The translations under genes and the position numbers were made by a program. DNA of 64,000 bases from Terriglobus albidus (GTDB lineage Bacteria > Acidobacteriota > Terriglobia > Terriglobales > Acidobacteriaceae), in NCBI RefSeq assembly GCF_008000815.1, contig NZ_CP042806.1, positions 682,001-746,000 of the forward strand, given 5' to 3'. Under the pieces are notes generated by a model, which saw nothing but the letters and a program-made list of their open reading frames with translations, did not search any database and was not told the origin of the DNA. Within the stretch, counting starts at the first letter, position 1; each line of letters opens with the position of its first letter. Shown piece after piece: positions 14 through 24,965 of the stretch.

Positions 14-457
14 CTAGTGTCCGCTGTGGTAAGGGTGCCCGGCAAGGATGGTGAAGGCGCGATAGATCTGCTCCGCCAACACCAGCCGGGCGAGCTGATG
101 CGGCAGCGTCATTCGCCCAAGGGACAGAGTGAGATCGGCCAGCTTCAGCGTCTCGGGCGACCAGCCGTCCGGAGGTCCAATGGCCAGAAGAGCACGGCGT
201 TTGCCGCCATCCCTTGCTCCGCCCAGCGCGGCCGCAAACTCCTCTGAGGTCAGCAGCTTCCCCCGGCTGTCGAGCAGCACCAGAAGTACGGCGCCTTCCT
301 TCTGCTCGCGCTCCACCCGTTCCAGGAACTCCCGCTCCGTCTTCAGGGCAAGCTCTTCCACCGGAGCATAGCGGGAGGTCCTCTTCAGGTACTCGCCTGC
401 CAGACTGTCGATCGCGCGGTCAGAACCAGCCGAGACCGTGACAAGAGTGAGCTTCAT
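14..457 (-). CDS. rlmH: RlmH, 23S rRNA pseudouridine-1915 N3-methyltransferase
   Basis: RlmH is a SPOUT-class methyltransferase that methylates pseudouridine 1915 in helix 69 of 23S rRNA in the cytoplasm. The protein begins MKLTLVTVSAG, carries a knot-region motif close to the family's GGPDG (here AIGPPDGWSPE), and ends in the HPYH block that is characteristic of RlmH. From the chosen ATG at 457 it has 147 residues, slightly shorter than the E. coli protein. A longer reading frame from 475 adds six residues without family similarity. The gene is divergent from the receptor gene that starts at 684, and the shared upstream element at 470-528 lies directly behind its start. Confidence 0.93.
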   Translation of the reverse strand: MKLTLVTVSAGSDRAIDSLAGEYLKRTSRYAPVEELALKTEREFLERVEREQKEGAVLLVLLDSRGKLLTSEEFAAALGGARDGGKRRALLAIGPPDGWSPETLKLADLTLSLGRMTLPHQLARLVLAEQIYRAFTILAGHPYHSGH

Positions 458-469
458 AGAACAACTTCC

Positions 470-528
470 ATCCAAATTTCAATAGATTGTTACGGGAATA
501 TTCCATAAAACATAGAATTGGGTACGGT
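470..528 (+). promoter_or_regulatory. Conserved 59-bp upstream element, copy A
   Basis: This segment aligns without gaps to 4371-4429 upstream of the next receptor gene; I count 45 identical bases of 59. It ends 62 bases before a sigma54-type promoter at 591. The second copy ends 60 bases before its own. Position and spacing suggest a binding site for a sigma54 enhancer-binding protein (inference). Two related short words, GTTACGG and GGTACGG, lie about 32 bp apart inside it. Confidence 0.6.
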
Positions 529-590
529 ATCTGACTTTGATGTCATCGAAATGATTTGAAAACTAAGGCAGTTATTTCCCTTTTCCAGTC

Positions 591-606
591 TGGCATAGAG
601 TTTGCT
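591..606 (+). promoter_or_regulatory. Sigma54-type (-24/-12) promoter of receptor 1
   Basis: TGGCATAGAGTTTGCT matches the RpoN consensus TGGCAC-N5-TTGC[A/T] with correct spacing between the GG and GC dinucleotides and one change (C to T) in the -24 box. It lies 78 bases upstream of the ATG at 684. The same layout stands in front of the receptor gene at 4616. Confidence 0.65.
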
Positions 607-683
607 CCAACTGATTCGACCTAATAGGCACGCCATCCACCCGCTGGATGCGGTGCTTACCCCCTAGGGAGATGACAAATCAG

Positions 684-3600
684 ATGAAGAAGCTCCTTGC
701 CTTTGTGCTCTTTGGAGTTGTGCTCGGCACTTTGAGCGGACTTACTGCGTTTGGCCAGGCCATTTCGGTTAATGGCGGCGCCATTCAGGGAACAATCACC
801 GACACCACGGGCGCCGTCGTCAGCGGTGCAACCATCAGAATCGAAAATCCAGCAACGAACTTCACCAAGGTTATTACCAGTGACAGCTCCGGCTTCTATA
901 GCTTCGGACCTCTGGTTCCCGGCAACTATAAGGTTGTCATTTCAGCCTCCGGTTTCTCTTCACTGACCGTGGATACGGTCATCCGCACCGGCACGGCAAC
1001 TTCCGGTAACTTCAAGCTGCAGGTAGGCAGCGAAACCACAACCATCGAGGTGGTTGCCGGGGCACTGCAGATTAATACAGAGCAGGCCGGCGTCAGCGAT
1101 GTTCTGACGCAGGAGCAGATCTCGAAGCTGCCGGTGAATGGCCGTAACTTCCTCGACCTGGCTCAGATTGAACCCGGTGTCATCCTTCAGAGCGGTGAGT
1201 CCTTCGATCCAACCAAGGCGGGCTACTCGGCGATCTCGGTCGGCGGTGTTTCCGGTCGTACGACCCGCATTCTGCTTGATGGCCAGGACATTACGGATGA
1301 GACCGTCGGCACCACCATCTTCAACGTCTCGCAGGGCGCCATCGACGAGTTCCAACTCAACCGCGCCAACCAGGACGCCAGTGGTGAAGTTACCTCCACC
1401 GGTCAGGTGCTCGTTTCGACCCGTTCCGGAACCAACGCGTTCCACGGCCAGCTCTTCGGAAACTTTCAGGACCACCGCGCCGGTTTCGCGAAGCTCAAGT
1501 CATTCGACGTGCCCTTCCAGCGCAATCAATTCGGAGGCAGTGTCGGCGGCCCGATCTTGCCCAATAAACTCTTCTTCTTTGTGAACGCGGAGCGTATTAA
1601 GCAGGATTCCTCCGCAGTCTCTCCGGTTGGTCCGACGTTCTCCTCCATCTTCGCGGCGCATCCTACTATTCCGTCGCCCTACCGTGAGACCTATTCAACG
1701 GCACGCCTGGACTGGAACGGTCCGCTGCACGGCCATTACTTCGCCCGTATCAACTACAACGTCAACTCCGTCTCGTCCAACTATGGCTATGGCTATTGGC
1801 TCTATGCCAATCGTGACAACACTCCGGGCGGAGCCTTTGGCGCCGACTTCTCAGCAGGTCACTTCACCCACTCCTTCCGTGGAAGCTACGAGAAGTTCCA
1901 CAACCTGATCTCGGATCAGACCTCTGGTAACAGCTCCATCTACAACGGCATTCCCGGTTTTGCCTATTACTTCACAGCGCAACGACTGTATTCCGGCCCG
2001 AACTATCTGGCCCCTCAGGGAACCTTCCAGTCTGACAAGCAGGCTCGCTATGACGGTTCCTGGACCCGTGGGAGCCACAATCTCCGCTTCGGCGCCAGCG
2101 TAAATCGTCTTCTGGGTGGCGGTTTTGCCAGCTTCTTCGGACTCGCTCCCCGTGCCTCTATCGGTGCTGGCCTCTTTACCGGTCCTACAGCAGCGAACCC
2201 GAATGCTTTGGGTTGTGGCGGTGTTGCCGGTGCTGCCGCCTGTCCCAGCGACCCGCTACGTGGTTACCACATTAGTTCCATGTACATTGGCAACGGCCAA
2301 GGTGCGTTCACAGAAAATCCCGGCTTCGGCATGTCGAACGGCGGCGTTTTCTCCTGGCGGTATGCACTGTATGTTCAGGACTCGTGGAAAATCACACCCA
2401 GCTTTACACTCAGCGCCGGACTCCGTTGGGCCGTCGATACTCGACGCGCAAACCAGGACATAGCCACCCCTTCTTGTGCGGATGTGAATTCCAGCCTGGG
2501 ATTTAGCTGCACCGGAAACCTCTTTGATCAGTGGCAGTCTGGTCTTGGGAAGGTAGTACGTCAGCCCTATGGCAATCTGGCTCCTCAGCTTGGCTTTGTC
2601 TTCAGCCCTGGAGACCATAAGTGGGCTATCCGCGCCAGCGCCGGCATCTTCTTCGAGAGCAATGTCTTCAATAATCAGACCAACTCTCGTACCGGCCTGA
2701 TCAAGGCGGGCCTTTTCAATGATGAGAAGCTGCTTTGCGGCGGCACTTATTCCATGTCCTTCCCAGACGGAACCACCGTTTCGTCTGTGAACGGAACCTC
2801 TATTCAAACACTCTGCAATTCAACTCCTCTAGGGAACTCTGCTTCTTCCTTCATCCAGTTGCAGAATGCCTATCAGGCAAACACGACGAAGACCGGTCCG
2901 CTTAGCAACGGCGCGTATGTGGGCAATAACCTGTACGCCAACAACATCTATGCCCCTGGTTTCAAACAGCCCTACTCTGAACAGTGGAGCGCCGGCATCC
3001 AGCGTGAGCTCTGGAAGGGCACCGTGCTGAGTGCCGATTACGTTCACAACAGCACCATTAAGGTCATGCAGAAAGTCGACGTGAATCACGTCGGAGCTGC
3101 GCGGTTCCTCAACGCGACGGCTGCAAGGAATGCTATCGCGGCTACCACCGATGATGCCGGTTGCGCCGGGGGCGCCAGTGCTGCCGCCATTAACTGTGCG
3201 ATCGCCAATGGCTACACCATGACGGACTTCGCCGGCTTCGGCCTCGATTCCGCGAATAATGTGCTCGGTGGACCATCCATCCTGAGCTTTGGCGCGACGC
3301 CAAATGACGGTGCTGCATTTGCAGGACAGAATCCGTTGCTCGGCAACGGAAACTTCCTGTTCCCGGTTGGGCGCTCAGGCTACGATGCGCTGCAGATCGT
3401 CTTCCGTCAGCAGAAACGCAATCCATTCCCTGGAATCACCAACTCGAACTTCCAGGTCTCCTATAACCTCTCAAAGATCGTCACCAGCGCAGGTGGAGAT
3501 TCTGACCAGTTCTTTGTGGGCGCATCGAGCGCACCATGGAACAATGACAGCCCGACTGCAATCATGGGCCGTGCATCGCTCGATCGTACCCACCAGCTTA

Positions 3601-4268
3601 GCTTCGGCGGCGCTGTCAATCTGAAGTACGGTCCTCAGATCGGCATGATCGGCCACTTTACCTCGGCTGCTCCGACCTCCATGATTCTGGACGCCACAAA
3701 TCCGGCCGGCGACATCTTCCAGTCCGATCTAAATGGTGATGGAACCACTGGTGACCTGCTTCCCTTCACCGAGCCGGGCGATTACATGCATCGTTACAAG
3801 GGGCAGAATCTCAACAACGCAATTACGAAGTTCAACAACGAGTACGCCGGTAAGCTGACCCCCGCGGGGCAGGCGTTAGTCAGTGCTGGCCTCATGACCT
3901 CATCGCAGCTCGCTCAGCTTGGTGGTGTTGTCCAGGAGATCGCTACCGCGCCCAGCAACGGAGGCATCAATAACGCAGCCTTCCGTTCGCTTGATGTGAA
4001 CTTCTCCTATCCCATCCGCTTCCCGTGGCTGGGTGAGAGCTTCAGCCTCGAGCCGGCGGTGGCTATGTACAACGTCTTCAACTTCTCCAACTTCAATAAC
4101 CCGACAGGAACGCTTGTCAATACCACACACGCTGCCTCTTCGGCCGGTTATATCAATGGCGCGAACACCTATGATCAGCACGAGACCAACCGGGTGCAGC
4201 GTGGCTCCGGCACGTTCTCGCAAGGTGCTCCTCGTGCGACGGAGTTTCAGCTCAAACTCAACTTCTAA
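684..4268 (+). CDS. Oar-like TonB-dependent receptor (carboxypeptidase-regulatory N-domain)
   Basis: This is a predicted outer-membrane beta-barrel of about 1194 residues. A signal peptide (MKKLLAFVLFGVVLGTLSGL...AFGQ) is followed by a carboxypeptidase-regulatory/CarboxypepD_reg domain (GTITDTTGAVVSGATIRIEN), a plug-like region (LPVNGRNFLDLAQIEPGV) and a long barrel that ends in an aromatic-terminated strand (EFQLKLNF). This is the usual Acidobacterial Oar/SusC-like architecture, linked to uptake of large substrates or surface functions; the substrate cannot be told. The ATG at 684 is chosen because AGGGAG (666-671) precedes it at 12 bases, the same leader as the gene at 4616. An in-frame ATG at 672 would touch the ribosome site. 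A terminator follows at 4283. Confidence 0.88.
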   Translation: MKKLLAFVLFGVVLGTLSGLTAFGQAISVNGGAIQGTITDTTGAVVSGATIRIENPATNFTKVITSDSSGFYSFGPLVPGNYKVVISASGFSSLTVDTVIRTGTATSGNFKLQVGSETTTIEVVAGALQINTEQAGVSDVLTQEQISKLPVNGRNFLDLAQIEPGVILQSGESFDPTKAGYSAISVGGVSGRTTRILLDGQDITDETVGTTIFNVSQGAIDEFQLNRANQDASGEVTSTGQVLVSTRSGTNAFHGQLFGNFQDHRAGFAKLKSFDVPFQRNQFGGSVGGPILPNKLFFFVNAERIKQDSSAVSPVGPTFSSIFAAHPTIPSPYRETYSTARLDWNGPLHGHYFARINYNVNSVSSNYGYGYWLYANRDNTPGGAFGADFSAGHFTHSFRGSYEKFHNLISDQTSGNSSIYNGIPGFAYYFTAQRLYSGPNYLAPQGTFQSDKQARYDGSWTRGSHNLRFGASVNRLLGGGFASFFGLAPRASIGAGLFTGPTAANPNALGCGGVAGAAACPSDPLRGYHISSMYIGNGQGAFTENPGFGMSNGGVFSWRYALYVQDSWKITPSFTLSAGLRWAVDTRRANQDIATPSCADVNSSLGFSCTGNLFDQWQSGLGKVVRQPYGNLAPQLGFVFSPGDHKWAIRASAGIFFESNVFNNQTNSRTGLIKAGLFNDEKLLCGGTYSMSFPDGTTVSSVNGTSIQTLCNSTPLGNSASSFIQLQNAYQANTTKTGPLSNGAYVGNNLYANNIYAPGFKQPYSEQWSAGIQRELWKGTVLSADYVHNSTIKVMQKVDVNHVGAARFLNATAARNAIAATTDDAGCAGGASAAAINCAIANGYTMTDFAGFGLDSANNVLGGPSILSFGATPNDGAAFAGQNPLLGNGNFLFPVGRSGYDALQIVFRQQKRNPFPGITNSNFQVSYNLSKIVTSAGGDSDQFFVGASSAPWNNDSPTAIMGRASLDRTHQLSFGGAVNLKYGPQIGMIGHFTSAAPTSMILDATNPAGDIFQSDLNGDGTTGDLLPFTEPGDYMHRYKGQNLNNAITKFNNEYAGKLTPAGQALVSAGLMTSSQLAQLGGVVQEIATAPSNGGINNAAFRSLDVNFSYPIRFPWLGESFSLEPAVAMYNVFNFSNFNNPTGTLVNTTHAASSAGYINGANTYDQHETNRVQRGSGTFSQGAPRATEFQLKLNF

Positions 4269-4282
4269 CCACTAGGCAGGAT

Positions 4283-4316
4283 GGCCCGGGGAGCGCTCTG
4301 CTCCCCGGGCCTTTGT
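4283..4316 (+). terminator. Rho-independent terminator after receptor 1
   Basis: A perfect 12-bp GC-rich stem (4283-4294 with 4300-4311) has a five-base loop and is followed by a short T-rich run (TTTG). It starts 15 bases after the stop codon of the receptor gene. Confidence 0.8.
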
Positions 4317-4370
4317 GCATTTAAGGCGAGATTCCCAAGCAACCGCGCTGAGGTCTGGAATTGGAAATTC

Positions 4371-4429
4371 ATCCAAAATTCAATAGTCTGTCACGCTGAT
4401 ATTCCAAAAGTCATAGGTTTTGGCACGGT
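4371..4429 (+). promoter_or_regulatory. Conserved 59-bp upstream element, copy B
   Basis: This is the second copy of the element at 470-528, aligned without gaps (45/59 identical). It ends 60 bases upstream of the sigma54-type promoter at 4490. The 347-base gap between the two receptor genes holds only the terminator, this element and the promoter. Confidence 0.6.
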
Positions 4430-4489
4430 CAAACGTTTATTCAGTGCCAAAAGTACCTTTGAATCAATTACTTTCCATGTCGCTCAAAT

Positions 4490-4505
4490 TGGCATGATTC
4501 TTGCA
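4490..4505 (+). promoter_or_regulatory. Sigma54-type (-24/-12) promoter of receptor 2
   Basis: TGGCATGATTCTTGCA differs from the TGGCACG-N4-TTGCA consensus by one base (C to T). It lies 110 bases upstream of the ATG at 4616 and has no obvious competing -35/-10 pair beside it. Confidence 0.7.
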
Positions 4506-4615
4506 ACACCGACGCCCAACCAAAATCTGGCGCGTGGATTCGAACAGAGTTTCCCTGAATTCCACACATACAAATAAAGGTTTCCCAAAACCCCAAAGGG
4601 AGATGCAAAACAAAC

Positions 4616-7600
4616 ATGAACAAGCTATTTGCTGTTGTTGTATTCCTGTTTGGCCTTGTCCTCTGCACAGTACCTCTGACAGCTCAAACATCGGCCGGCC
4701 TCGGCACGATCACAGGCACAGTTACTGACCAGTCCAAGGCTGCCGTTTCGGGCGCAACCGTTATCCTGAGCAACGCCCTCACGGGCGAGACCCGTACCGC
4801 CACCACGAACTCGCAGGGTGGCTACCAGTTCCTTAACCTCCGCGTTATCTCTGGTTACTCCATCAAGGTCGAATCCAAGGGCTTCTCGACCCGTGAAGTC
4901 AAAGACATCAAGACCTCTGTAGGTTCCGCCACCAATGCTGACGTGACCCTGGCCGTTGGTTCCGAGTCGGTTGTCATCTCGGTTGAGGGCGGAAGCTCCG
5001 AGCAGGTCCAGACCGAAACCTCCTCTCTCTCGGAGCTCGTTGATTCCTCCGTCTGGAAGAGCTCGCCACTTGAGTCGCGTACCCAGAACGAGTTCGTCCA
5101 GCTCGTCGCAGGCGCAAGCCCTGACACCGCCGCCACCGGCCGCGGTTTTGCCGTAAATGGCGCCCGTACCGGTACTGGCAACTTCCTCGTCGAAGGTTTT
5201 GATAACAACGATCAGGGCCAGGGCGGCGCAGGCTTCACCTTCGGCCGTGGCGGCGCTGTGACCTCCATCTCGCCCGACGCCATCCAGGAATACCGCGTTA
5301 TCACCCACGTCCCTCCGGCTGAGTACGGCCGCGCGGGTGGCTTCTCCACTGACACCGTGCTGAAGTCCGGCGCGAACCAGTGGCATGGATCGCTCTTTGA
5401 ATACAACCGTATCCAGACCCTGGCGGCGAATAGCTGGTTCTCAAACAACAGTGGCCTGCGCGATCACCGCGTCCGTAATCAGTTTGGTGGATCCATCGGC
5501 GGTCCGATCCGTCGCGATAAGACTTTCTTCTTCGCGACGCTCGAAATCCACCGCTATCGTGAAGGTGTTCCAACTGTAGTAACGGCAACCACGCAGCAGT
5601 TCCTGGATTTCGTTAACAACGGAAGCTATCAGAAGTTCATGGAAGGCACTGCTTTCCAGAATCCGTCTGCAGGCCAGGAAGGCATCTGCCCAATCTATTT
5701 GAACCGTACTTGCCAAGGTGCATTCGCTCGCCAGTCCACTCTTGGACCGGTCTTCAAGGCGCTCTACGCGAAGTATCCGAGCTCGTTTCCGCTTGCAACC
5801 AGCAGCCTCGACAATGGAGCACAGGGTCTGCTTTCGGGAGGAGCGCTATCGTTCCCGGTACCCGTCTATGGTCTGACCGGCGTTATCCAGACGACCGTGC
5901 TCAACCAGAACCGCGGCACCATCAAGATCGATCACAAGCTGACTGAGAAGGACCAGCTTGCCTTTAGCTACATTCCTGATCTCTACACCAGCAGCTTTAA
6001 CAATGGTGGCGGTGACTCGACCCCCGGACCTCCGTACAACAACGTTGGCGGATCGCAGGTCTTTGGTGCGTCATGGACCCGTACCTGGACTCCGACCCTT
6101 ATCACGCAGGGCAAAGCAAGCTACCTTCGCCACGTGTCGAACTTCGAGGTTCCCGGAACCACGGGTGTTCCTTCCGTGTATACCGCGGACTCGTTGTTGA
6201 CAGGCTTCGGCGCCAGCACTGGCTTACCGCAGTACTTCACAGACAATCAATTCGCCTACGAGGGATCCCTCACCAAAACTCTGGGATCGCACACTGCCAA
6301 GGCAGGCTTCCGTTTTGTCCGTACCCGCAATGGCTCGTCTTTCTATAACGACATCAATGGCAATCTCGCGTTCTGGTCGGTGGAAGGTCTGGTCACGGAC
6401 GGTACTGCCGATGAAGATCAGTTGAAGACTGCTGCTACTGCTGCGGATGCAGCGACCTACGGCAGTCTGTACTCCGCCGGAGCATCGCTCGACCCGACGA
6501 CCAACTCCGCACCCGATCCCTACCGCGGTTACCGCGCGAAGGAGTTCGCGGCCTACGTGCAAGATGACTGGAAAGCCACGTCGCGCCTGACGCTGAACTA
6601 CGGCGTGCGCTGGGAGTACTTCGGCCCCCCGCATAACTTTAGGGCCGGTTTCGACTCCAACGTCTACTTCGGTAATTTCGGTACGCCTACTGCGACCGGC
6701 AATCCAAACCTGCCCAACACTCCGTTGTTGGCCGCTACCCAGGGAGCATTCTTCGCGCAGAAGGATAGCAACATCTGGAACAAGGACATGAACAACTTCG
6801 CTCCGCGTCTGGGCTTCTCCTATGACACGATGGGCAACGGCAGGCTTGTCCTGCGTGGCGGCTTCGGTATCGGTTACGATCGCCTCTACAACAACGTCTA
6901 CGAGAACATCCGTTTCAACTATCCGCACTTCGTGGACAACACCTACGGTTTCGGCGCGGGTTCGGCAGGCATCAGCCCGACCCTCCGCAGCCAGCTCGTT
7001 CAGGTGCCGTTTACCGGCAACTCCGCTCTGGCAGTAGCCGGTGCGAAGCCCGTACCTCGTCACATCGATCAGCGCCTGGTCACGGCTTACTATGAGCAGG
7101 CTCACTTCGGCGTGCAGTCCGGCTTTAGCGGCTACGTGTTCGAAGCGACTTACGTCGGCACCTTCGGCCGCAAGCTCGTCGGTCTGATGAATATCAACAC
7201 CTTCGAGGGCCGTACTGCCTGCATGGCATCGTCGAGCACGGCGCAGAAGGCGCTCTGCGCTGCCCAGGGGTATACCACCTACAGCTCGGCTCGTCCGACT
7301 CCGCTCTTCAACAACGACAACTTCCGTACCAACGCCTTCGGCTCCAACTACAACGGCGGCCAGGTCAGCGTGCGGAAGAGCTTCGCGAAGGGCGTTCAGA
7401 TGCTTGCCAACTACACCTACTCGAAGGCAATGGACAACACCTCTGACGTCTTCACGGTGAAGAGTGCCGGCACGGGTATCGTCTCTCCTTACAACCCGCG
7501 GTATGAGTATGGCGCGGCTGACTTCGATACCCGTCACAACCTGGTTGTGACCTCGAATATCGAGTCGCAGTGGAAGAAGAAGAACCTGCTCCTCGGTGGA

Positions 7601-8071
7601 TGGGCGCTTTCGCCGATCTTCTCGTGGCGCAGTGGTTCTCCGATCTACATCAAGAACGGCGCCAGCACCTATGACCCGAACAAGGATGGCACCACTGGTG
7701 TCGATCGCGCGGTCTATCTGAAGACCGGCGATCCTCGCAGCTCCATTAATCACAACGTGAGCCCGGCCAGCGGTTACATCACCAAAGGAACCTGGGGTGC
7801 GTACTCCTGCCCGACCGTCTGGTGCGATCCTCCGGTGCAGCGTAACAGCATCTATGGCCCGCGTTTCATCAACCTGGACCTGGGAGCGATCAAGCGCTTT
7901 GCCATCACGGAGCGGCAGACGGTCACCTTCCAGACCAGCTTCTTCAACATCTTCAACCATCCCAACTTCAAGAACCCGATTGGCGATACCAACAATGCCA
8001 ACTTCGGTAAGTCGACCGATGTGAACAAGGACGCTCGTATTACGCAGATGAGCCTGCGGTACGACTTCTAA
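4616..8071 (+). CDS. Oar-like TonB-dependent receptor, second paralogue
   Basis: This is a predicted outer-membrane receptor of 1151 residues. It has a signal peptide (MNKLFAVVVFLFGLVLCTVPLTAQ), a CarboxypepD_reg domain (TGTVTDQSKAAVSGATVILSN), a plug-like part with a VNGART motif, a large beta-barrel, and a final strand ending in MSLRYDF, which has the C-terminal aromatic residue needed for outer-membrane insertion. AGGGAG at 4597-4602 precedes the ATG at 13 bases, and the same leader is seen for the gene at 684. Sequence and promoter layout mark the two as diverged members of one family under common control rather than one transcript, since a strong terminator separates them. The substrate is unknown; many family members take up polysaccharide or peptide products. 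Confidence 0.88.
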   Translation: MNKLFAVVVFLFGLVLCTVPLTAQTSAGLGTITGTVTDQSKAAVSGATVILSNALTGETRTATTNSQGGYQFLNLRVISGYSIKVESKGFSTREVKDIKTSVGSATNADVTLAVGSESVVISVEGGSSEQVQTETSSLSELVDSSVWKSSPLESRTQNEFVQLVAGASPDTAATGRGFAVNGARTGTGNFLVEGFDNNDQGQGGAGFTFGRGGAVTSISPDAIQEYRVITHVPPAEYGRAGGFSTDTVLKSGANQWHGSLFEYNRIQTLAANSWFSNNSGLRDHRVRNQFGGSIGGPIRRDKTFFFATLEIHRYREGVPTVVTATTQQFLDFVNNGSYQKFMEGTAFQNPSAGQEGICPIYLNRTCQGAFARQSTLGPVFKALYAKYPSSFPLATSSLDNGAQGLLSGGALSFPVPVYGLTGVIQTTVLNQNRGTIKIDHKLTEKDQLAFSYIPDLYTSSFNNGGGDSTPGPPYNNVGGSQVFGASWTRTWTPTLITQGKASYLRHVSNFEVPGTTGVPSVYTADSLLTGFGASTGLPQYFTDNQFAYEGSLTKTLGSHTAKAGFRFVRTRNGSSFYNDINGNLAFWSVEGLVTDGTADEDQLKTAATAADAATYGSLYSAGASLDPTTNSAPDPYRGYRAKEFAAYVQDDWKATSRLTLNYGVRWEYFGPPHNFRAGFDSNVYFGNFGTPTATGNPNLPNTPLLAATQGAFFAQKDSNIWNKDMNNFAPRLGFSYDTMGNGRLVLRGGFGIGYDRLYNNVYENIRFNYPHFVDNTYGFGAGSAGISPTLRSQLVQVPFTGNSALAVAGAKPVPRHIDQRLVTAYYEQAHFGVQSGFSGYVFEATYVGTFGRKLVGLMNINTFEGRTACMASSSTAQKALCAAQGYTTYSSARPTPLFNNDNFRTNAFGSNYNGGQVSVRKSFAKGVQMLANYTYSKAMDNTSDVFTVKSAGTGIVSPYNPRYEYGAADFDTRHNLVVTSNIESQWKKKNLLLGGWALSPIFSWRSGSPIYIKNGASTYDPNKDGTTGVDRAVYLKTGDPRSSINHNVSPASGYITKGTWGAYSCPTVWCDPPVQRNSIYGPRFINLDLGAIKRFAITERQTVTFQTSFFNIFNHPNFKNPIGDTNNANFGKSTDVNKDARITQMSLRYDF

Positions 8072-8165: not shown

Positions 8166-8708
8166 TCAGCGCTTCTTGCCTGCGGCTTTCTTGGCAGCCT
8201 TCTTTGCCGGTGACTTCTTCGCTGCAGGCTTCTTCACGGCTGTTTTTACAGACGCTTTCTTTACAGCCTTTTTGACAGCTTTCTTCGCGGCCTTCTTAGC
8301 CGGCGTCTTCTCGCGTACAGCCCTCGACTTGGCCGCGACCTCCTGATTCATCTCTGCCACCGAGATCGTCGTTGCCGACTTGCGCAACCGCTCCAGACCG
8401 TAGAACTCGCGCTTCTCCGGAGAGAAGATGTGGACGATGAAGTCCACATAGTCCATCAGGATCCACTCGGCCTGTCTGCGGCCTTCGACGGAGTTCGCAT
8501 AGACACCGAACTGCTTCTTCAATTGCAGTTCGATCTCATCGGAAATCGCATCGTTCTGGCGCTCGTTGGTGCCATTGCAGATCAGGAAGTAATCGCACAA
8601 CCCGCTCTCTGATGGATCGAGCTGCAGGATACGGATGTCCTCGGCCTTCTTACTGTCGGCCGCTTCTGCGGCGGCCAGAACCAACTGCTTGCTCTCGTTC
8701 GTTGCCAT
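8166..8708 (-). CDS. rsfS: RsfS, ribosomal silencing factor, with lysine/alanine tail
   Basis: RsfS binds ribosomal protein L14 and blocks joining of the ribosomal subunits when nutrients are scarce. Residues ~1-115 show the family core (ADSKKAEDIRILQLD, DYFLICNGTNERQ, EGRRQAEWILMDYVDFIVHIFSPEKREFYGLERL). The last ~50 residues are an added histone-H1-like tail of AKKAAKKA/KKPAAKK repeats that most RsfS proteins (about 105-120 residues) lack. The tail is lysine-rich and probably disordered, and may bind rRNA or DNA (inference). Two adjacent ATG codons are possible (8711 and 8708). AAGGAGG abuts the first, so the second is preferred. The convergent terminator at 8087-8122 ends it. Confidence 0.88.
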   Translation of the reverse strand: MATNESKQLVLAAAEAADSKKAEDIRILQLDPSESGLCDYFLICNGTNERQNDAISDEIELQLKKQFGVYANSVEGRRQAEWILMDYVDFIVHIFSPEKREFYGLERLRKSATTISVAEMNQEVAAKSRAVREKTPAKKAAKKAVKKAVKKASVKTAVKKPAAKKSPAKKAAKKAAGKKR

Positions 8709-8802
8709 CATCCTCCTTCAGTACATTCCCAAGGATAGGACATCCTATCTAATCCCGCCGGTTGGCTGCCAGAGCTTATCGACAAATTCGCTTTCACTGC
8801 GG

Positions 8803-22205: not shown

Positions 22206-24965
22206 ATGCACCTATTTCGGATACTCGTCATCCTGGCCGTCATGTCCACAGCGGTCACCTCCTTAGGGCAGCAGCCATGCACCCGCGGTGTTCGCGTTGA
22301 CGGCCTGGTAACCGATCCCAGCGGAGCCATGGTTCCGGGTGCAACCATACAGGCCTCTACGGGCGCGGTGGCAACGAGTGATCAGACTGGACACTACCTG
22401 CTGCCGTGCCTTTCTCGTTCTTTTACTCTGCAGGCACGCGCGGATGGCTTCGCTCCGCAGACTCTCACTCAGACAGCAAACTCGCAGCAACTTCACCTCG
22501 ATATCCAACTCTCGATTGCTTCAGTGGAGTCTCAGGTGCAGGTCAGCGCCGACGACAACACCGTCGCTCTCGACCCAGGGCGAGGGCCAGGCACCGTCAC
22601 ATTGGACGAGCGAGCTGTGCAGCAACTTGCGGATGATCCAGACGATCTGCTGCGCCAATTGCAGATGCTCGCGTCGCAGAATGGCGGTGATCCCAGCACT
22701 GCGCGCATCACCGTCGATGGATTTCAGAACGCCACCACGCTGCCCCCAAAAGGTTCGATCGCATCGATTCGTGTCAACCCCGATCTCTTTTCCGCCGAGT
22801 ATCGTTGGCCGCCTTACGGTGGAGGTCTTATCGAGATCAAGACGAAGCCTGGTGCTGCGGCGATACACGGAGCCGCATTCTTTACCGGTAGTAATGGAAG
22901 CTGGAATGCGACTACCGCATTTGCACCCTCGTCGACTCCGGCAAGTAAACGCCGCTATGGTTTTGAGCTCAGCGGGCCTATTCTTCCTGGTCGCGGAGAC
23001 TTCTCCGCCGCCCTTGAAAAGCGCGATATCGATGAGTTCAAAGTCGTGAATGCGCAGGTTCTGGCGAGCGACTTCAAGATAAGCCCGTTCCGCCAGACCG
23101 TTCCCACGCCACAGCGCTTATGGGTGGCCTCGCTGCGCAGCGGCTGGCAGCTTGGCCAATCTGACACGCTCACCGGCTCCTTTGCTGCGAATGTGAACAG
23201 TCTCGGTAACCAGGGAGTCAGTGCCCTGGTTCTTCCAGAAGCCGGATACTCCACCATGGCAACTCAATACGAGCTTCGCCTTGCGAATGAGCTTACGCAC
23301 GGCGCAGGCCAACTTCACCAGACCAGGGTTGGACTGTCATCCCGGAGAAGCCAGAACACACCAAATGCGACAACCCCTTCGCTACAGGTGGCGGGATACT
23401 TCACCAGCGGCGGCGCCACAAGCCAGGCCACTGACAGCCGTCGATACACCCTGGAGCTCGATCACGATGCAATGTTCACGAAGGGCAGGAACACACTCAA
23501 GCTGGGCACCCAGAGCCTGGGCATCGTGATTCACAACCATACTCCCGACACTTTCAATGGAGCGTTTCTCTTTGGTGGAGGGAGCGCGCCGGCGCTGGAC
23601 CCTCAGAATGCGACTACGGGACAAACCGTCACCATTGACGGCATGGATCAATACCGCCGCACCTTGCTCGGGTTACCTGGCGGGAATCCCACTACCTATC
23701 AACAGACCAGCGGAAATCCCGAGGTGAACTTCACACAATGGCAAAACGCGCTGTATCTCGAAGAGAACTTCCAGGTCACTCAGCGGCTAACTCTGTCAGG
23801 AGGGTTCCGCTATCAGTTTCAGACCTCACCAGATAGCCTTGCCAACTTCGAGCCTCGGCTCGGCATCGGCTGGTCACCGGATAAGAAATCCACCTGGGTG
23901 ATTCACGCTCGTGCGGGTATCTTTTCGAACTTCATCGACGCGGACACGATTGCGGATGGTTTCAGGCTCAACGGCAGGCGTCAGCAGCAGGTCGTGGTCT
24001 ACTCGCCCGGTTACAGTGCGCCGCTCAACCCGAACTCAGCTTCCATTGCCGTCTCTACCCGGCGGGAGTTTGCGCCGGCGCTCTCGCAGACGACGACCTT
24101 TACCGGATACTTCACCGTTGAGCACACCTTCGCTCACCATTGGCTGGCACGCTCGGCCTTCTATTGGGGAGCCGACTGGAATGCGATCCGTATGCGAAAT
24201 ACTAATGCCCCCATCGTCAGCACAGCCATTGGCGCACCCGCTGATCCAATCGCGGCACTCCGCGCTCCGCGCCCGTATGGCGGCAATGAAAACATTCTGC
24301 GCTATGAGAGCTCGGGGCATCTCGCCGGCAATCTTGTCTCCTTCTCTGTTGAGCAACAGAGCTACAAACGCTTCAACCTGCGTGTGTACTACCGGCATGC
24401 GAACTTTAAAGCGAATGGTGGGGATGGCATCGTCACTCCGCAATCCTCCTACAGCGAACAAGGGGAATCTGCTCGTGCCGACTGGCTGAGACTCAACGGA
24501 GTTTCGTTGATTGGCAGCCTCATCCTTCCTCGCAGGGTCGAGTTAGCAACGGAGCTCGATGCTCACTCCGGCGCGGCATATACCATCACGACCGGAACCG
24601 ATGCAAATGGCGACGGTATCGTGAACGATCGTCCTTCCTATGCTTCTCCGGGGATGTCCGGATCCGTTTATCACACGCGGTATGGCCTGATGACGGCCGA
24701 TACGACCAACGGCAACGTGCCCCGGAACGTCGGCACAATGCCGCCTACGGTCCATCTCGACATGAACCTCAGCCGCGCCTTTACGCTCAATCCAAAAGAC
24801 AAGGAGCACGCGCGAACCATCACCTTCAATCTTCGCGCCGCTAATGTTTTGAACCACGTCAATATAAACGGGGTTGGGACTGTCGTCTCCTCGCCGTCCC
24901 TGGATAAGCCTTACCAGGCGGAATCCGCCAGGCGGCTCGAAGCCGGCGCGCGATTCTCTTTTTGA
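22206..24965 (+). CDS. Short Oar-like TonB-dependent receptor protein
   Basis: A predicted outer-membrane protein of 919 residues with a signal peptide (MHLFRILVILAVMSTAVTSLG), a CarboxypepD_reg domain (VRVDGLVTDPSGAMVPGATIQAST), a region resembling a plug (ITVDGFQNATTLPPKGSIASIRVNPDLFSAEY) and a beta-barrel ending in ARFSF with a terminal aromatic residue. It is 230-275 residues shorter than the receptors at 684 and 4616. Unlike them, it has no recognisable -24/-12 promoter or copy of the 59-bp element. A GCGGAGA ribosome site precedes the ATG. It stands directly before a LytS-type kinase gene (46 bases), which may place it under the same control. Confidence 0.82.
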   Translation: MHLFRILVILAVMSTAVTSLGQQPCTRGVRVDGLVTDPSGAMVPGATIQASTGAVATSDQTGHYLLPCLSRSFTLQARADGFAPQTLTQTANSQQLHLDIQLSIASVESQVQVSADDNTVALDPGRGPGTVTLDERAVQQLADDPDDLLRQLQMLASQNGGDPSTARITVDGFQNATTLPPKGSIASIRVNPDLFSAEYRWPPYGGGLIEIKTKPGAAAIHGAAFFTGSNGSWNATTAFAPSSTPASKRRYGFELSGPILPGRGDFSAALEKRDIDEFKVVNAQVLASDFKISPFRQTVPTPQRLWVASLRSGWQLGQSDTLTGSFAANVNSLGNQGVSALVLPEAGYSTMATQYELRLANELTHGAGQLHQTRVGLSSRRSQNTPNATTPSLQVAGYFTSGGATSQATDSRRYTLELDHDAMFTKGRNTLKLGTQSLGIVIHNHTPDTFNGAFLFGGGSAPALDPQNATTGQTVTIDGMDQYRRTLLGLPGGNPTTYQQTSGNPEVNFTQWQNALYLEENFQVTQRLTLSGGFRYQFQTSPDSLANFEPRLGIGWSPDKKSTWVIHARAGIFSNFIDADTIADGFRLNGRRQQQVVVYSPGYSAPLNPNSASIAVSTRREFAPALSQTTTFTGYFTVEHTFAHHWLARSAFYWGADWNAIRMRNTNAPIVSTAIGAPADPIAALRAPRPYGGNENILRYESSGHLAGNLVSFSVEQQSYKRFNLRVYYRHANFKANGGDGIVTPQSSYSEQGESARADWLRLNGVSLIGSLILPRRVELATELDAHSGAAYTITTGTDANGDGIVNDRPSYASPGMSGSVYHTRYGLMTADTTNGNVPRNVGTMPPTVHLDMNLSRAFTLNPKDKEHARTITFNLRAANVLNHVNINGVGTVVSSPSLDKPYQAESARRLEAGARFSF

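Follow-up and report, generated by a model that had tools for sequence, protein, structure and literature searches.

Oar-like receptors with predicted RpoN (sigma-54) promoters, often beside rlmH, in Terriglobus albidus and related Acidobacteriaceae

Acidobacteria are common in soil. In Terriglobus albidus two genes for Oar-like TonB-dependent receptors (R1 and R2) are each preceded by a copy of an upstream element and by a -24/-12 sequence, which raises the question of whether they belong to a set of receptors that is controlled by RpoN (sigma-54). The whole stretch of DNA analysed (64 kb, C1:682001–746000 of a one-contig genome of 6.4 Mb) is referred to as the window. The features of the locus, in window coordinates, are given below.

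14–457, minus strand: rlmH, SPOUT methyltransferase (Pfam SPOUT_MTase, 2e-39)
470–485, no strand: box A of the R1 element, ATCCAAATTTCAATAG (kept in seven promoters of five genomes)
500–515, no strand: box B of the R1 element, ATTCCATAAAACATAG (aligned promoters)
591–606, plus strand: predicted sigma-54-type -24/-12 promoter of R1, TGGCATAGAGTTTGCT (pattern search and promoter alignment)
666–671, plus strand: AGGGAG, likely ribosome-binding site of R1 (read off the sequence)
684–4268, plus strand: R1, Oar-like TonB-dependent receptor (Pfam; aligned promoters and starts)
4283–4311, plus strand: strong hairpin 3' of R1, candidate terminator separating R1 from R2 (folding)
4371–4386, no strand: box A of the R2 element, ATCCAAAATTCAATAG (promoter alignment)
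4401–4416, no strand: box B of the R2 element, ATTCCAAAAGTCATAG (promoter alignment and box profile)
4490–4505, plus strand: predicted sigma-54-type -24/-12 promoter of R2, TGGCATGATTCTTGCA (pattern search and alignment)
4597–4602, plus strand: AGGGAG, likely ribosome-binding site of R2, ATG at 4616 (read off the sequence)
4616–8071, plus strand: R2, Oar-like TonB-dependent receptor (Pfam OMP_b-brl_4, 2.6e-150)
8166–8711, minus strand: rsfS, opposite border of the receptor slot (Pfam RsfS, 3.3e-31)

The start of rlmH was read off the sequence as the ATG at 457. The gene is divergent from R1 and marks the receptor slot, adjoining slot receptors in relatives too; rsfS, followed by nadD, lies on the other side. 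Pfam assigned to R1 a CarboxypepD_reg domain and a beta-barrel, the E values being 3e-18 (R1) and 4e-18 (R2) for PF13620 and 4e-55 (R1) and 2.6e-150 (R2) for the PF25183 barrel; a plug match was found in R1 only and fell under Pfam's cut-off. CarboxypepD_reg with an OMP_b-brl_4 barrel is also the architecture of other acidobacterial Oar-like receptors. The two proteins are 32% identical over the N-terminal ~300 residues. The start at 648 given to R1 by the open-reading-frame caller is probably too early; the likely start is the ATG at 684, which lies 12 bases after AGGGAG and agrees with the start of the orthologue in genome G010. The hairpin that follows R1 has a 12-bp inner stem (-37.4 kcal/mol for 4270–4330, z = -5.1) and was missed by a simple terminator scan. 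R1 and R2 probably form two transcription units, in keeping with the strong hairpin.

The initial annotation had aligned 470–528 with 4371–4429. On re-examination 45 of the 59 bases were identical, and elsewhere in the window neither copy matched better than 31/59 on either strand. The pattern TGGCAYN5TTGCW was matched at 591 and 4490 with no third match in the window, and the distance from the element to the -24 sequence was 62 bases at R1 and 60 at R2, as had been reported. The AGGGAG leader does occur in both, but at unequal distances from the start of the -24 sequence (75 versus 107 bases), so that the likeness in spacing is limited to the interval between element and promoter. The description of the 59 bp as a single unit had to be revised: the part conserved between species consists of two similar boxes, ATCCRAWWTTCAATAG and TYCCAWAANNCATA, whose starts are 30 bp, or about three turns of DNA, from one another.

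Close relatives were compared over the same region. Orthologues of R2 were present in G008 (95%), G001 (85%), G018 (80%) and G010 (95%, in two pieces), and a close orthologue of R1 was found in G010 only (97%). The promoters of both genes are kept in G010 and that of R2 also in G001, G008 and G018, so that seven promoters from five genomes of the Terriglobus group could be aligned. All seven fit TGGCAYN5TTGCW exactly and carry both boxes; three stretches (ATCCRAWWTTCAATAG, TYCCAWAANNCATA and the -24/-12 pattern) are kept, with the element 60–63 bp from the -24 sequence, in DNA that has otherwise diverged. The N5 spacer itself takes six forms among the seven. In G001, G008 and G018 the R2 promoter directly adjoins rlmH; in the window genome and G010 R1 intervenes. 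As R1 and R2 share just 32% of their N-terminal residues, the likeness of their promoters does not stem from a recent gene copy. A search of 397 genomes of the order for the two-box element (at most three mismatches) returned only the five source genomes, and the full element is therefore lineage-specific.

Selectivity within the genome was assessed on the 150 places that match PF13620 (Oar-type CarboxypepD_reg). After exclusion of short or very weak frames, the upstream DNA of 129 was examined (96 stretches, 30 loci and three in the window). Only R1 and R2 (2/129) combined the element with an exact intergenic -24/-12 site, which supports the claim of selective control; the upstream regions of the other receptors examined in the genome scored at most 31/59 for the element, and the receptor at 22206 had neither element nor -24/-12 site, as the initial annotation had stated. 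That annotation had regarded absence of the element from other receptor genes, both of this genome and of relatives, as evidence against its reading: the element is indeed absent at the other receptors examined here, but relatives do carry it at the corresponding locus. Exact matches to TGGCAYN5TTGCW preceded 3/129 receptors, namely R1, R2 and L116 (C1:6173469); the last falls inside an upstream reading frame and was counted as chance. A one-mismatch site at L047 was rejected as too close, only 56 bases before the domain.

Genome-wide the same pattern occurred 17 times, compared with 11 for a reversed control pattern, so that a -24/-12 match taken by itself carries little weight. A single box (two mismatches) was found at 34 places in the genome versus nine for its control, and among 30 such loci examined a downstream -24/-12 site (at most one mismatch) occurred only at R1 and R2; the match at L316 is not downstream, sitting 33 bases before its box.

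Other exact sites of the genome lie near different genes. At L012 (C1:4951441, minus strand) an exact TGGCATAGCGATTGCT begins 75 bases upstream of where a plug-domain protein probably starts; Pfam detected no CarboxypepD_reg in this protein, and there is no CATAG-type box. Exact sites at L011 (C1:4505611), L007, L009, L014 and L015 precede or overlap the starts of frames that are FeoB-, laccase-like, GFO/IDH/MocA oxidoreductase- and molybdopterin-binding-like, one frame having weak matches only; none has the receptor box and some of the sites may be chance.

Places with R1-like receptors numbered 14 besides R1 and its G010 orthologue, and ten were examined for sites. All six that lie beside rlmH (47–61% identical) had a -24/-12-like site with one or two mismatches, and in five of these six loci rsfS was on the other side (not in L221). 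R1-like receptors away from rlmH (L218, L219, L220 and L222) had a site in 0/4. R2 homologues alongside which rlmH was not found (L206, L207, L208 and L210; 43–46%) had a site with at most one mismatch in 0/4 and a single two-mismatch match in 3/4, which is the background level. L205 (55%), with rlmH and rsfS adjoining, had a two-mismatch site and a TTTTCCATAG box. Upstream of L206 (R2-like, 45%) a near-perfect palindrome, TTCCATAGCG-AC-CGCTATGGAA, resembles two opposed copies of the box; no good sigma-54 site accompanies it.

The neighbourhood of rlmH was then surveyed more widely. The gene was sought in 120 genomes (five of the window's genus) and found in 117. No adjoining receptor was detected at the 30 rlmH loci that scored highest with Pfam. 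In other genera an Oar-like receptor was divergent from rlmH in 22 of 40 loci; as these were hand-picked, mostly from the low-scoring end, with the window's genus excluded and several loci passed over, 22/40 is not a family frequency. The two sets cover the rlmH neighbourhoods of 70 of the 117 genomes. Beyond the receptor, rsfS was seen in 13/22 slots; elsewhere the stretch ended or rsfS was undetected.

Sites of the -24/-12 type with at most two mismatches preceded 15/22 slot receptors of other genera versus 12/127 non-slot receptors of the window's own genome (Fisher 1e-8), and with at most one mismatch 11/22 versus 2/127 (Fisher 3e-9), GG and GC being fixed in these counts and the non-slot stretches being the longer. 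The reverse strand of the slot DNA had a site in 1/22. Five of the 22 had only a three-mismatch site (background), and two had none even at three mismatches. The best sites of the second receptors in four tandem loci had one, one, two and three mismatches, only the one-mismatch pair being informative. The slot promoters of L293 (G024), L301 (G028) and L303 (G071) are other-genus examples with at most one mismatch.

A tree was calculated from 80 N-terminal parts of receptors, including 30 sampled non-slot receptors of the window genome; many branches near the root were poorly separated and the bootstrap had not fully settled. Slot receptors do not form a single clade in this tree, its well-supported branches forcing at least nine label changes, and 0/30 of the sampled non-slot receptors of the window genome fell inside a supported slot clade. 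The eight receptors that lay off rlmH or could not be placed in the two pattern scans described below were included, and seven fell among slot clades: L387 and L389 with R1-like receptors, L388 with L275/L287, L398 with L279, L392 with L301/L278, and L402 and L403 with L270/L292. L399 formed a long branch of uncertain position. Four non-slot R1-like receptors nest within the R1 clade and have no -24/-12 site, so the promoter cannot be predicted from place or from lineage alone.

For the upstream boxes, expectation-maximisation on 29 upstream stretches yielded TTTTTCATAG de novo, with a log-likelihood of 77 versus 30–40 in six dinucleotide shuffles, a score that related sequences inflate. The best box started 80–121 bases before the -24 sequence in 18/29 stretches and was on the other strand in 13/29. 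Trained on other genera alone the box became GTTTTTCATA, which matches box B of R1 at -93 and box B of R2 at -91; the match at R1 (498–507) overlaps box B as delimited by the alignment. The profile from other genera scored equally well or better in five (for R1) and 15 (for R2) of 127 non-slot upstream stretches of the same genome, so that the box by itself is not specific and separates the window promoters weakly. In our view it represents a family consensus, and the lineage of the window appears to have drifted away from it.

Box and promoter were then sought together in a blind scan of 398 family genomes with the pattern TTTTYCATA-N70..100-TGGCNYN5WTGCW, which returned 14 places against five for the reversed pattern. 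Ten of the 14 precede frames that match R1/R2 by tblastn (L387–L390, L392 and L396–L400), and the other four (L391, L393, L394 and L395) precede no such frame. Four of the ten receptors lie beside rlmH (L390, L396, L397 and L400) and five away from it (L387, L388, L389, L392 and L399); L398 could not be assigned to either group, since only 10 bases of contig precede its match. With the training loci L396, L397 and L400 removed the yield was 7/11. On the assumption that 3% of genes encode such receptors, the chance probabilities are 5e-13 (10/14) and 6e-9 (7/11). A second scan, with the box on the opposite strand, returned 11 places versus three in the control, and receptors followed at two of the 11 (L402 and L403; p = 0.04). 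The forward scan thus succeeded strongly, the reverse-box scan only weakly. The reading of the -24/-12 sequences as RpoN-type promoters, put forward in the initial annotation, thus held in relatives, in other genera and in the blind scan; the pattern points to sigma-54 control reaching well beyond the window, in what would be a small, old receptor regulon.

Other explanations were weighed against this reading. The shared element might be the remnant of a tandem duplication, with the -24/-12 letters present by chance: R1 and R2 stand in tandem, their signal peptides and leaders are alike, and the -24/-12 pattern alone exceeds its control only by 17 to 11. Their N-terminal identity is 32%, however, and yet the promoters have been kept (both in G010, that of R2 in G001, G008 and G018), while other genera have sites at the same slot amid different flanking DNA. 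Conservation of the promoters already makes a duplication remnant unlikely, and altogether we regard it as very improbable. A role of the boxes in the divergent rlmH promoter, or as binding sites of a repressor or nucleoid protein on A/T-rich DNA rather than of a sigma-54 activator, is easier to entertain, since box A of R1 starts 13 bases upstream of the ATG of rlmH, the boxes are rich in A and T, and their profile is unspecific within the genome. The boxes of R2, however, are conserved between the window genome and G010, and in neither do they adjoin rlmH; box plus -24/-12 site led to receptors off rlmH in five of ten cases, a sixth being at a contig end. Moreover, 18/29 best boxes start 80–121 bp before the -24 sequence, where enhancers of sigma-54 promoters usually lie. 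We hold this role to be unlikely.

Elsewhere, ECF factors control many TonB-dependent receptors. R1 and R2 might have additional promoters of the sigma-70 or ECF type, with RpoN as a secondary input. A simple scan of 400–4700, directed at sigma-70 only, found no sigma-70-like site where 2.1 were expected by chance, and we judge this arrangement to be about as improbable as a role of the boxes at rlmH. The preferred reading is that a subset of the Oar-like receptors forms an RpoN regulon, with an unlinked enhancer-binding protein as its switch; on the strength of the comparisons made here, we give this reading a probability of about 0.8. The receptor regulon proposed by the initial annotation is partly supported, by the enhancer-like box upstream and by the selectivity (2/129), but not by a linked activator gene, none of which was found in the loci searched.

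Under the RpoN reading R1 and R2 would belong to a receptor set present in many genera of the family and transcribed from RpoN promoters. The activator would bind A/T-rich CATAG-like boxes ~80–120 bp upstream of the -24 sequence (TTTTYCATAG in other genera; ATCCAAAWTTCAATAG and TTCCAWAANNCATAG at R1/R2) and would open RNA polymerase–sigma54 seated on TGGCAY-N5-TTGCW. A common home of these receptors is next to rlmH, in many cases with rsfS on the far side, and occupants from distinct clades share this type of promoter there. Binding of the activator and activation by RpoN are what we infer, as are the identity of the activator, its signal and the ligand; that a single activator serves both R1 and R2, and that a nutrient is the trigger, as initially suggested, is conjecture. 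Somewhat short of an even chance is given to a more specific proposal, that the Acidobacteriaceae possess an RpoN-switched receptor slot by rlmH, commonly in nadD-rsfS-rlmH, at which control is kept and the receptor repeatedly exchanged or tandemly duplicated; the incomplete view of rsfS lowered its odds.

The arrangement resembles NtrC-family RpoN systems in having the GG-N10-GC core within TGGCAY-N5-TTGCW, candidate boxes at enhancer distance, and one rpoN match and GAFTGA activators in the genome; it differs in that the targets are Oar-like receptors. Bacteroidota receptors of the SusC/RagA type are regulated by ECF/anti-sigma pairs or by hybrid two-component systems. They likewise comprise many paralogues with dedicated regulators, whereas in the present case RpoN is predicted as the factor, a search around the receptors (window and 17 related loci) found no activator gene, and receptors of different clades have one promoter class in common. 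From other acidobacterial Oar-like receptors the subset to which R1 and R2 belong is set apart by its common promoter class, often fixed place and exchangeable occupants.

A survey of sigma-54 regulons from 2025 covers 33 classes; its main text contains no word beginning with 'Acidobacteri', and the TonB passage there concerns TonB itself in Flavobacteriia (PMC12316311). Control of TonB-dependent receptors by sigma-54 has precedents, in so far as a -24/-12 sequence is listed before an Ni/Co TonB-dependent receptor of Bradyrhizobium DOA9 (PMC13207237) and 18 TonB-dependent receptors were altered in a study of FleQ in Xanthomonas (PMC6213323). These cases differ in being proteobacterial, and the portions of the two papers considered here describe no shared enhancer box, syntenic slot or Oar-like receptors. 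Among the papers listed in searches of the open-licence literature, none describes such a regulon or the control of acidobacterial Oar-like receptors. If the proposal of an RpoN-switched slot is true, one activator would expose whichever Oar-like receptor a lineage currently carries, and this would be, as far as the literature searched shows, the first regulatory code for the large Oar-like repertoires of the phylum. With a promoter signature that crosses genera and marks a small subset, it becomes testable which of the ~130 receptors is used when; the slot would serve as a natural experiment in which receptors are exchanged under constant control.

RpoN and candidate activators were sought with Pfam and tblastn. 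The window genome has one match to PF04552 (C1:4970495, 1.9e-57), and RpoN was present in 49/50 family genomes tested, both with and without the slot. Thirteen proteins of the genome match PF00158 (sigma-54 activator) strongly, nine of them with GAFTGA and none in the window, and tblastn with these 13 (1e-15) detected no linked enhancer-binding-protein gene in the window or at 17 related loci. The activator would be encoded elsewhere and might be a two-component response regulator. Five of the proteins had reciprocal best hits in all five slot-bearing genomes (five genera), a comparison which was made against slot-bearing genomes only and presumes that one activator serves all. Three of the five have GAFTGA: C1:4215845 and C1:2813151, response regulators with a receiver and a Fis-type HTH which form the shortlist, and C1:4045330, in which a C-terminal HTH was not recognisable by eye. 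C1:1557255, which a histidine kinase adjoins, qualifies if G009 is omitted. C1:4450132 and C1:4451615 (L059 and L053) form a divergent pair of enhancer-binding-protein genes, and a similar pair is present in G009, G024, G091 and G169.
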